Assembly (NCBI GenBank): GCA_000442015.1
Contig: KE561324.1
Location: 1 to 64,000 of the forward strand
Direction: 5' to 3'
DNA length: 64,000 bases
From: Rozella allomycis CSF55
Taxonomy: Eukaryota; Rozellomycota
Shown: piece after piece, positions 45,746-51,200 of the stretch
Layout: each line of letters begins with the position of its first letter
How positions within the stretch are numbered: the stretch's first letter is position 1
Notes under the pieces: model-generated
Seen by the model: only the letters and a program-made list of their open reading frames with translations
Databases searched by the model: none
Told to the model about the DNA's origin: nothing
Made by a program: the position numbers and the translations under genes

Positions 45746-47170
45746 ACTAAATTTTAATACATTCGATAGGATGCTCATACATCGAATGGATTAATGAATG
45801 GGTAGTAGACAAAATCCGATTAGTCGGTCGCTAGTTTATGAAAACGGAATAAAATACCTCATAATATTCTTTGATTTGATTTGTATTTCCTTCCGTATAA
45901 CCTGACTGATCTATATTTCCTTTAAGTTTAATTGGGCAAGATAATTGATTTTGCACATTCGGCTGGACATACCTAATTTTCACAACATAATATATGTTAC
46001 TTGTCTTTTTGTTCTGTTATTCCTGTATTCATAGTCGTTGGATAGTACAAATAGGTTGGATTAAAATCTTTAGCTGAGCCCGCCACTTGTTTTTTGCCAA
46101 TGCTGTATGAATTCAATCTTTCAAATGCTTCATTCCGATTAATATTTTTCGTGTAAACATCTGAATTTAAACTTTCATGTAAAACGCCCAAATTTACCTC
46201 TTTTTAAAGTCCTTTTCATATACTTTCTCTATTTCACCTATTCTTTTATTGATAAGAGGTAAAGGGTGATAACTATCAAAAGATTTATGGACGAACGTTT
46301 CATTTCCTTTGGTCTTCTTCGAGTAACCTGATTCCATAGTTTGAATCTCGGGCAAAGATTTTGCAGGATCGACAAAATCCTTCAAACTTAAAAGATTCTA
46401 ATGAGATCAATAAATTCGTTAATTACCTTTGAAAAATAAATATTTGTGGTTTCATAAGATTGTTCCCCGCAGTAACCAAATGCTAGTTTTTGTTGCAATA
46501 CCGAATCAAAGTCTTTTGTATATGGAGTTGATTTTTGCGAATCAATGCTAATTGAACTTTTTTCTATCATTTTCCCATGTGCGTTGAATATTTTTAAATG
46601 ATTTTTTGTTTCATCTACATTTGAATAGACACGAAGGATTACATTCGGCAGGAAGAACCTCATATGTTTTGTCCAATTTAGCAGTGTAAATATCTTCTGA
46701 TGGATTCTAATTATACTAATGTGTAATGCATACCGGATATATAGCACTTTTGTTGTCTTGGTTTGAGATTGTGTATCCTGAACCTTGAATTACTCTTGAA
46801 ACACCACGCGGAGTTTTAGTAGTGGGATGGTTTACAATAGGGAAGCGCTCTGTATATTCTGAGCTGTACCTTCTAAGAATAGCATGCACAAAATAATTTA
46901 CTTGTCATTTGAATACATATCAGGCATTTGGCTTGTTGAAATGTAAGGCAGGGTATTAGATGTATGTGCCGATCCCCGAATCATCTTTAGATTTAGATGT
47001 CTGCGTATTTCGTCCTTTAATTTATCAGATTGCATGCCTTTATCAAGATTCGCGTACTTTTTGAATTCTGTTGAATACGATGTACAATAAAAACTGGCAC
47101 TCGAGCGATGCGCCCCATTGGAAGCATTGATGTAAACACTTGGTCGTCCTTTATAAGGGTGAGTTTCCAT
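45746..47170 (-). CDS. Probable axoneme-associated protein with SGY(T/S) repeats (PPP1R32/IIIG9-like)
   Basis: Multi-exon gene with recurring short motifs: GSGYTISNQDNKS, ESGYSKKTKGNET, QSGYTEGNTNQIKEYYE, and blocks FERLNSYSIGKKQVAGS and YLYYPTT. Aromatic-rich SGY repeats separated by about 60 residues, with Asn/Lys-rich linkers, recall PPP1R32 (IIIG9) and related axonemal microtubule proteins. Identification is from memory and tentative. Two further C-terminal exons were added by splicing 27-29-nt introns (about 45967-45994 and 45857-45884), ending EHPIECIKI at 45746. The neighbouring TPPP, LRRC9 and CFAP299 genes favour a flagellar role. It is divergent from the PRELI gene with 122 bp between starts. 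Confidence 0.5.
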
Positions 47171-47292
47171 TGGAATGTTCAGAAAAATTGTAACCTTAGA
47201 AACAATGATTCGATGTGTAACATATGTGACTACATTAAAATTTGGTAAGTCAAAGTTTGAACATGTTAAAATAGGAAATTCTGGGAAACTTT

Positions 47293-47912
47293 ATGGTGGT
47301 TACTAGCGATGTAAACAAATTTGTTTATCAGTAGGATAAAATATATGTTGGTATAGGGCTCCATGGAATGAAGTAACTAGTGCTATTTGGCGAAAATATC
47401 CAAACCCCTATTCCAAGCACGTTTTGACTTCAGATATAATCGATTATCGGATAGACAGCAATAATCAAACACTGAAAGTTGTCAGACTATTAAAAAAGAA
47501 AGGGGTTTTACCGAACTGGATACGATGGGTAACAATTACGGTGATGAATTTTCAAGATAAAAGTGTCAAATGCATTTGTATTAGAAGAAACAGAAATTGA
47601 TTACAAGAATAAAATTCTAGTTAGGCGTTCAAAGAACCTATCACACTTGAATTTTCTGTACGTGGTTGAAAAACAAACGCTGAAAATGGATTCAAATTAC
47701 CATAATCGGTAAGATAAAGATGGTTACAATAACAGGACATTAGAAGATACATATTTTCAAAGTGTTTCAAAATGGTCGTGGGCTGAAAAGTTAGCGTTAA
47801 GTAAGCATCGTGAATATGTTCATGGGGTAATGTGTTAGAAAAGTCATCATCGTAGAGTCAAAAAGCAATATTATTTGTTTTGGAGAAACTCCGAGTGGGA
47901 TTAATAATATAA
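47293..47912 (+). CDS. PRELI/UPS-family mitochondrial lipid-transfer protein
   Basis: Built from five exons (47293-47330, 47357-47528, 47557-47708, 47736-47826, 47856-47912; total 510 nt, 169 residues); no single frame is long, so it is easily missed. It reads APWNEVTSAIWRKYPNPYSK and HVLTSDIIDYRI, then KKKGVLPNWIRW, LEETEIDYKNKILVRRSKNL, and W..AEKLALSKHREYVHG. This is the PRELI/MSF1 domain of yeast Ups1/Ups2 and human PRELID/SLMO, which with Mdm35 carry phosphatidic acid or phosphatidylserine across the mitochondrial intermembrane space. Introns are 26-29 nt. It pairs functionally with the PTDSS gene at 41.9 kb. Confidence 0.9.
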
Positions 47913-48005
47913 ATTGTAAAAATAAAGTAATCTTAACAAAGTATACCATAAGATGCGTTTTCGAATTTCGAAAATATTGAAAAAAAATTGTCAACTCTGC
48001 GGGAA

Positions 48006-48213
48006 GGCAGTGTGAAGCCGGCTTTTAGGAGAGAAATCTCTTGGGAAGGTCTGAGGAACCGCCAGTAGCTCTTAGCTGGAGCTCTCGAGAATTCGAGAGA
48101 GACTTACCAGAAATACACCCGCAAGGGATGGAAATGGTCTCTGGTAGATTACGGCAGTGCGATAAGCCGGGCGTCATTCGATGTAACCCAATTCAGACTA
48201 CTCTCACGCTGCC
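48006..48213 (+). ncRNA. RPR1: Nuclear RNase P RNA
   Basis: The CR-I block TTGGGAAGGTCTGAGG (48041-48056) and the CR-V block AACCCAATTCAGACTACTCT (48185-48204) are essentially identical to the universally conserved core of eukaryotic RNase P RNA. GTCTGA and TCAGAC pair to form helix P4. The termini GGCAGTGTGA (48006-48015) and TCACGCTGCC (48204-48213) form helix P1 with one G-U pair. An AGATTACGGCAG element near 48151-48162 fits CR-IV. About 208 nt is shorter than yeast (369) or human (about 340) RNase P RNA. It is the catalytic RNA that removes tRNA 5' leaders. A run of four T follows, as for RNA polymerase III. Protein frames across it are fortuitous. Confidence 0.95.
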
Positions 48214-48217
48214 TTTT
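48214..48217 (+). terminator. Pol III T-run terminator of RNase P RNA
   Basis: TTTT directly after the 3' strand of helix P1. The convergent LRRC9-like gene begins its coding end about 46 bp further on. Confidence 0.6.
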
Positions 48218-48262
48218 ATCATTATTGGATATAATGTGAAACTGTTAGTTTTATTAATTTCA

Positions 48263-51200
48263 TTAAAGGGTTACTTGGAGATCCTATTGTCTAATACATG
48301 TATGCTAAAATACCTTTGCTTTTTCTCTGTCAGTCATTGTTATAATTTTGTTATTGACAACACTAAGGCTTGGAATGTAATACAAAGCGCAATAGCGAGC
48401 AAATGGTTCATTCTCAATTTGATTGTTTAAGAAATTCAATTCTTCCAAGTTTGGCATATTGAGATTCTTTTTGATTAAATACGATTACTTTACAGATAAT
48501 TGCAATACATCAATGATTTTATTTGAAGTGATATCAAATCTTTTCAGAGTGTTTATGGTGCCCATGTCGGTGAGAGATCTAATTCGATTTTCCCTGTTTC
48601 AATAATGCCGAGTTTTTACTTTATAGTTAAAACTTCAAGCTTGGTACAACAAGAGAGAGGATTGTTCTGGAAGCTAACTATTTGGTTTTTGTCTAAATAA
48701 AGGTATTTAAGACTGCATATGCCCAAAGGCGTGTCGATCTATTTTAGAATTGAGACGTTTTTACTATTTTAACTCTATTTCCAGTCATGTTTAATAATTC
48801 TAGTTTTGGGAATTGATCGCCCTGAATCCACCATAGATTTTCAATCCCGTTAAGCATCAGATGAAGCTCTTTTAACTCTGGCAACACATATTTATTGGTA
48901 AAAGGATTTCCGAATATTTCGGTACTAATTTGATTTGAAGAAGCAGAGATTGTTTTTATCTTTTTCAAATAGACCAGGGGTTCAATAGAATTTAATTGGT
49001 TAAAGTCAAGATTGACAACTTCAATGTTTATGAATTCAGTTGACCCAAACTTTTTGAAACACTTAATGTCCTTCAAGTTACAATGAGAGATGTCCAAATT
49101 TCTCAAGTGTAAAGTTAAAAGATACACTTGTATGTCTTTATAATACAAAAAGGATATTTGAGAAATCCAAAGAAGAAATCTTTTCGCACAAGAATTCCCT
49201 TGTTAAAACACCCTGAAATTCTTTATTAGCATCTATAAAATTCTCAGCATTAAGATATTCTCCGTTTAAACACTACTAATAACGGAGTAATACGTTACTT
49301 TGAGAGAATTTAAGTGAAAGAGAATATATTTTTTCCAATTATTTGAATAGTCACATACGGGATTCAAGATAACGTCAATGGAGACAAGGTGAAGCGATTT
49401 AAGTTTGAAAAATTCCCAGTTTTCCTTCACGCGGTTTCCAGAAATATCTATCAATATTACAATTTTCTACGTTACAAAGTTCTTGAAGTGTCTCTATGCG
49501 TGCTATCCAATCCAAATTTTGGACTTTGTTGAATGATAAATTGAGTCGTTTAAGAGGCGATATCCCCCATTTAGATAGACTTATGTCATTGTTAGCAAGG
49601 CTAAGTGACCAAAGTTTTTTCAAATGACTTATTGGGCCAACTTCCTTTATTTGGTTATTATCAAGGTGAAGACATTCAAGATTTGGAGTCAATGAGTAAA
49701 TAAACGATGGATCTTGAATCCAATTTCCACACAACGATAGTCTTTCAACACTAGGCAGTACTCTATTATTGTAACTTTCTTACAACATTACATTGCTTGG
49801 AATAAGTCTAAATGACCCACATTGTCCAAAATTAGTATCTTCATTGTGTTTATTATCGATGGTCGAATGGGTGAATCAGTCATAAAAGATTTTAAATGAT
49901 TGACGCCATTAAAGCTTGTTGGACTGCATTTATCTGAAAAATCCAGTATGAATTCTTGCATAGGCAAAATTGGTGAAGATATAAAGTTTCCAACGCAAAA
50001 ATTCTTTCATAAAGATTATTAAAAATTACATTCCTTTTGAAATCTTTTCCATCTAATTTCTTTAATTGTTTCATGGAGCTAGTCAGTGCATATGGATATT
50101 CGCTGGATAATGCTATGGGATTGAACCGTAAATCTAAAGTTTGTAGCTGTTTTATGACTTTTATAACTTTGCAAATTCTATTCCAAGAACTAATTTTGTT
50201 AAATTTAGCTGAAAGTTCTTTTAACATTGGGAGGTTTACGATGGAATCAAACGAAGCCAAGAAACAGTAGTCAATGTTTAAATGCGTGATATTTATTAAC
50301 TCCCTTTGAATAACAAGGCCTGATAAATGGTTAAATTGTAAATTTAGAGCTTTTAAATTTGGCAAAGGATCCTTTATATTAAGCGTACCTTCAAACCCCG
50401 CCAAGTTTAAAGCAGCATCTTTAATATTGACATAACTCTGTAAATGTTCTAAATCTCTCTCCTTCTGCTTCTTATTTTTATAATTATCATCTTTAAATGT
50501 AGCTTTATCACAGAGTCTTGTCAAGTTTCGTTGGTATGCTGCCTCAACCAAGTCCTTCAATTCATGATCATCTTCATTTGTGTCTGTATGAAGCAAGTAA
50601 AGGGGATTTAAGTATTTATCAAATATCAAAATCCAACACTCGTGATTGACCACCGGCATGGTCCATTTTACTATATTTAACACTTCCAAATTGTACAAAC
50701 CCGAAAGGTTTTCAATGTGGATCAACAATTCATCTAAGGATCCTTCAATAAACCCAACAGTGGTGTCATTTTCGGGTTTTGAACCGGTGATAACAATTTT
50801 ATAGCAGCAATTTATTTTTGTATTGTCAAGGCTAACATATTTAAAATTTTTGTAGTCTGTTTCAAAGCAGAATTGATATCGACCCCCGCTTTGATATTCT
50901 ATTTGATTTAGTCGAATCAGGCAGTCATAATATTTGTTCACTTTTAATTTTAACGCATTCCAAAATTGAATAGATGAGCTGATATTAGATTCAAAGTCTT
51001 GAAGCTGATCACTTAAACGAGGCAGGCTTAAAAACTTTCTACCTTGAAGTTCAATGAGTTTCTTGATATTAAGAAACCAAAGAACTTTGAAGATCTCCTT
51101 GTCACGCTTAATTGTTTCGACCTTTGTTCTGAAATAGCTATATTACCAAAACTCGAAAAGTTACGTCAATCTTTGCTTAATAACATTCGACAATATTTTT

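Follow-up and report, generated by a model that had tools for sequence, protein, structure and literature searches.

The parasitic fungus Rozella allomycis CSF55, placed by NCBI taxonomy in Fungi, Rozellomycota, has a nuclear RNase P RNA gene, complete at 206 nt, at positions 48007-48212 (+) of the window, the window being the whole 64,000-nt stretch of contig KE561324.1 that was analysed. The locus is confirmed as an ordinary member of the Rfam family RF00009, and we are nearly certain that the best overall explanation is a nuclear RNase P RNA that is shortened at P3 and P12 and would work with proteins of the Pop1, Pop5, Rpp29 and Rpr2 types. RNase P is the enzyme that trims tRNAs, and its RNA is nearly universal; in eukaryotes the enzyme is characterised by the P3 arm and the protein dimer bound to it, P3 usually consisting of a helix, an internal loop and a second helix that serve as the docking site of Rpp20/Rpp25. 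A reduced P3 is already known from the P and MRP RNAs of Giardia and, as a lack of P3b, from microsporidian MRP RNAs, and small size by itself is no novelty; what is new here is the reduction in both Rozella RNAs, that of RNase P and that of RNase MRP.

Identity of the locus

The sequence-only reading had proposed an RNase P RNA gene at 48006-48213 and had named a covariance-model search as the check, and an Rfam cmscan of the whole 64-kb window bears out this identity: RF00009 (RNaseP_nuc) matches 48007-48212 (+) with 117.3 bits and an E value of 5e-33, well over the curated cut-off (gathering threshold) of 28 bits, in an alignment spanning positions 1-301 of 301, i.e., the full model. The proposed locus was right, its ends being one base too wide on each side. 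This is the one Rfam match in the window that reaches its gathering threshold, and a permissive rescan of 47000-49200 returned RF00009 again together with six further matches, each below its cut-off and under 20 bits. The gene had been called hidden, which is fair for protein-centred annotation only, since an Rfam scan detects it at once; Rfam or Ensembl lists may already contain the locus.

In the Rozella allomycis assembly searched (9.97 Mb, 213 contigs), the window locus is the sole RF00009 match at E<=0.001 among the 15 of 358 first-look candidates that were scored, and the same model gave matches in 0 of 14 control genomes. We take the published assembly to be somewhat larger than the one searched, for which reason the absence of a gene from the latter is weak evidence. 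A decayed copy or pseudogene of RNase P RNA would account for the short P3 and P12, both arms being truncated, and the searched assembly may be incomplete; this reading is nonetheless rejected as very unlikely, with no second RF00009 match among the scored candidates, the conserved blocks intact, nine pairs kept in P1 and an MRP RNA at another locus that is likewise without the P3 internal loop.

The RNA also differs from its surroundings in base composition, with a GC fraction of 0.515 in 48000-48199, where the remaining 200-base bins of 47000-49199 range from 0.29 to 0.395. The RNA is overlapped by a frame of 129 aa with a TTG start (48041-48430), which invites the alternative that the region is coding, or part of an mRNA, and that the RNA match is fortuitous, but the chance of this is next to nil in view of the RF00009 E value over the window and of a GC rise that has its peak on the RNA. 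The frame, earlier set aside as spurious, does exist in the frame list, and the word spurious draws its whole force from the RNA that occupies it.

Folding of the 206-nt strand gives an MFE of -71.1 kcal/mol (z -2.24), a value matched or bettered by 3 of 200 shuffled sequences, so the RNA folds only moderately better than shuffled sequence; the unconstrained fold recovers P1 and the short P3 along with most of P4. An exact-pattern search for relatives with the compact spacing of CR-I to CR-V returned 0 in viral contigs and 0 in genome contigs, in collections from which records of this or very near genomes may be left out, and thus supplied no relative in which covariation could be judged.

Structure of the RNA

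The RNA is closed by P1, in which 48007-48015 pairs with 48204-48212 over 9 bp including one G-U, in the Rfam structure line as in the MFE fold. P3 follows at 48027-48042 as a plain hairpin of 6 bp capped by a GAAA loop (AGGAGA GAAA UCUCUU), found in the alignment and in the folds, and leads into CR-I, GGGAAGGUCUGAG, at 48043-48055. Both CR-I and CR-V (UAACCC...CUCUC, 48184-48205) had been described as conserved almost base for base, and both are identical to the Rfam consensus letter for letter. In the alignment, P4 is formed by CUGAG at 48051-48055, the end of CR-I, pairing with UUCAG at 48192-48196 within CR-V, and the expectation that P1 and P4 could be drawn is upheld by alignment and fold. 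Between these core elements lies a 7-bp hairpin of the specificity domain (48082-48099; Rfam structure line and fold), which we take to stand at the P9 position of the model, followed by an AGAAAU ... GGAAAU region (48109-48135; alignment and fold) that is presumably the CR-II/CR-III region. A CCC-GCAA-GGG hairpin at 48118-48127, present in alignment and fold, is on our assumption a reduced P12, and AGUGCGAU at 48156-48163, aligned to the consensus AGUgCAAU, presumably marks the CR-IV region. All these elements lie on the forward strand.

The locus thus scores over the curated cut-off across the whole model, has the CR-I/CR-V core with P4 and the closing P1 helix, and is set apart from the MRP RNA of the same genome, for which RF00030 matches at its own locus. 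The one family feature not found is a P3 of helix, internal loop and helix, 16 bases in a plain hairpin standing in place of 45 model positions; this does not bar membership in RF00009, because Giardia is a published exception. Relative to human/yeast-type nuclear RNase P RNA, the full-model match, the letter-for-letter CR-I and CR-V, P1 and P4 are the same, whereas the Rozella RNA has 206 nt for 301 positions, a plain hairpin as P3 and a P12 of few pairs with a GCAA loop.

The small size that had been remarked on is real: most RNase P RNAs measure 250-550 nt, according to the accessible part of PMC2996960. Set against RF00009, the Rozella RNA lacks 95 positions, and in the alignment 87 of the 95 belong to the P3 interior and P12. 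Inside the outer P3 helix there are 6 bases for 35 model positions, and the interior of the arm that we label P12 has 2 bases for 60. The P3 hairpin lengthens to 10 bp in the fold, and the gap from GAAGC to CR-I is 24 bases, which is too few for a two-helix P3 of 45 positions. With P3 (GAAA) and P12 (GCAA) both capped by GNRA loops, the RNA is short because these peripheral arms are cut to small GNRA-capped hairpins.

RNase MRP RNA of the same genome

RF00030 exceeds its cut-off at one locus in the genome, where it delimits an RNase MRP RNA of 224 nt with 89.2 bits (G000:C128:70466-70689, equal to positions 1501-1724 of locus L002, minus strand), and a rescan of this locus gave RF00030 again. 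At E<=10, with 25 of 38 first-look candidates scored, the genome has two RF00030 matches, the second reaching 9.6 bits on contig C139; sub-threshold matches like this one occur in 13 of the 14 control genomes. The P and MRP families are related and share one Rfam clan (CL00002), which gives some ground for asking whether the window locus is itself an MRP RNA rather than an RNase P RNA. The clan winner at the window locus is RF00009, however, and that locus is absent from the two MRP-model matches at E<=10 among the scored candidates; given the distinct RF00030 locus, the MRP reading is rejected as extremely improbable. RNase P RNA and MRP RNA are two separate genes on different contigs.

In the alignment of the MRP RNA, both strands of the P3 internal loop, 8 and 9 positions long in the model, are wholly absent, and what remains is 25 bases against 47 model positions, at a posterior of only ~0.5. 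The length argument stands despite this posterior, because the gap from AAAGAAC to CR-I, 28 bases, does not depend on the alignment. Folded alone, this segment forms a single continuous hairpin, and P3 is again a continuous hairpin when the full-length MRP RNA is folded without constraints. The P3 internal loop is missing in the MRP RNA as in the RNase P RNA, and the occurrence of this reduction at two independent loci speaks against faulty assembly and against the decay of a single gene. Within 80 bases 3' of the predicted end of the MRP gene there is no T-run.

Candidate protein partners and possible meaning of the short P3

Four of the seven subunit families sought in the genome were matched, namely Pop1, Pop5, Rpp29 and Rpr2. 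The Pop5/Rpp14-family match (97 bits; G000:C205:109474-109785, plus strand) shares its 120-kb contig with the RNase P RNA gene, a linkage that is probably due to chance. There are two Rpr2-type loci, one over the cut-off; the second, with 25 bits, falls below it (G000:C124:24105-24335, plus strand) and could, on our assumption about the role of such proteins, be an MRP-specific Snm1-like partner. The remaining three of the seven, Rpp20, Alba and Rpp30, had no match in the 9.97-Mb assembly. Pop5 would be expected to have Rpp30 as its partner, and since Rpp30 too is unmatched, some genes are either overlooked by the method or missing from the assembly, which makes the lack of an Alba pair no more than a hint. 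In usual eukaryotic enzymes, P3 is bound by the Rpp20/Rpp25 (Pop7/Pop6) dimer, as stated in the available portions of PMC8509007 and PMC11621453, and the results hint that this P3-binding dimer may have been lost in Rozella.

The most economical reading is that of a working RNase P and a working MRP with a prokaryote-like P3. By analogy with characterised enzymes, the P1/P4 core would form, together with CR-I and CR-V, the active site at which pre-tRNAs lose their 5' leaders, and the tRNA would be read by the CR-II/CR-III part. The RNA would act with the Pop1, Pop5, Rpp29 and Rpr2/Rpp21 proteins, and as the P3 reduction is common to the P and MRP RNAs, the protein scaffold of both enzymes, and Pop1 in particular, is probably held in place without the usual P3 internal loop. 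Catalytic activity, Pol III expression and the protein contacts are inferred. In the 200 kb of the genome scanned with Rfam, one tRNA gene is present.

Comparison with known systems

A likeness in P3 is found in Giardia intestinalis, whose P and MRP RNAs both have a P3 that is short, without an internal loop and said to resemble the bacterial form, as far as the available text of PMC3228867 shows. Giardia differs in belonging to an unrelated lineage and in having longer P RNAs, of 246, 237 and 246 nt by the coordinates in Table 2 of that source, which likewise yield 251 nt for the P RNAs of Trichomonas at two loci. Microsporidia, treated in the accessible part of PMC6282948 as close to Rozella/Cryptomycota, have MRP RNAs without P3b (PMC1796607, in the portion available), a likeness to the reduced P3 of Rozella that covers MRP RNA; the literature searched yielded nothing on P3 in the P RNA of microsporidia. 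Nor did any of the papers listed in the searches, as judged mainly by titles and from sources available in part, describe this Rozella RNA or the joint P3 reduction; three of those listed, by title two mitochondrial-genome studies and one fungal genome study, mention both Rozella and RNase P RNA.

The sequence-only reading had linked the size reduction to a compact genome, a description that is apt only in part for an assembly of 9.97 Mb. The most compact microsporidian genomes are smaller. The reduction of both RNAs, already present in Rozella, is a more informative point than small size alone, and it offers a way to test whether the shrinkage of such RNAs follows compaction of the genome or loss of a protein partner. 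It is possible, if doubtful, that the P3-related loss predates the extreme genome compaction of Microsporidia and was not caused by it. For structural studies, Rozella also provides a naturally short P RNA.

U6 of the same genome is of normal length, with 109 bases for 105 model positions. SRP RNA, sought as a control for general RNA shrinkage, had no genome match with the metazoan model at E<=1 with 26 of 35 candidates scored and so gave no control; the SRP RNA of Rozella may have diverged, may belong to another type or may lie outside the searched assembly.

Expression and putative promoter elements

As had been noted before, a T-run follows the RNase P RNA gene: TTTT lies directly downstream (48214-48217, plus strand) and is a likely Pol III terminator. 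Upstream, a PSE-like element, TACCATAAG, starts at -63 (47944-47952, plus strand), and AATATT, a putative weak TATA-like box, stands at -34 (47973-47978, plus strand). Upstream of U6 in the same genome, TACCCATAAG starts at -63 and TATATA stands at -29, and the MRP gene has ACCCCTAA at -45 and TATAAA at -34, the -63 element being missing from it at the same spacing. A one-gap comparison of the P and U6 elements, TACC(C)ATAAG, gives 9 matches. Among 3000 random pairs of upstream-sized pieces, 56 match equally well in position, and some of these, though few, overlap each other; the statistic is weak, having been picked after the motif was seen and with three gene pairs compared. The strict motif occurs 3 times in 528,000 strand-bases (the window plus 200 kb), one of these occurrences being that of the P gene itself. 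When the regions upstream of P, MRP and U6 were searched three ways for a motif without gaps, the score was at chance level (30 observed; 27-33 in 40 null sets), and ungapped pairwise upstream scores among the three were ordinary. Searches for the exact consensus of the A and B boxes came up empty near the P, MRP and U6 genes, and Rfam found no snRNA genes in 200 kb of the same genome. The PSE-like element common to P and U6 is suggestive only.

A SNAPC3/SNAP50 match covering 130 profile positions with 121.8 bits, and adjoined by a second stretch, is present at G000:C132:298679-299086 (minus strand). In human, SNAPC3 is a subunit of the factor that reads PSE-type elements (PMC9652321, in the part available), and yeast U6 uses another promoter type (PMC1796607, likewise in part). 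The presence of SNAPC3 in an early-diverging fungus would fit PSE-type snRNA promoters. We put forward as a hypothesis that this early fungus may have a gene-external Pol III promoter (type 3, PSE plus TATA).

Neighbouring frames

Elsewhere in the window, a frame of 533 aa at 27771-29372 had no Pfam match, and a Nop14 frame is 100% identical to a Rozella allomycis CSF55 protein over 98% of the query, the next hit having 34% identity; the homologues listed for the DHR1 helicase (120 of 7106) point more broadly to fungi and other eukaryotes. Downstream of the RNA gene, leucine-rich-repeat frames lie within 48744-50941 on the minus strand, those at 48744-49148 and 49892-50941 matching Pfam LRR families.
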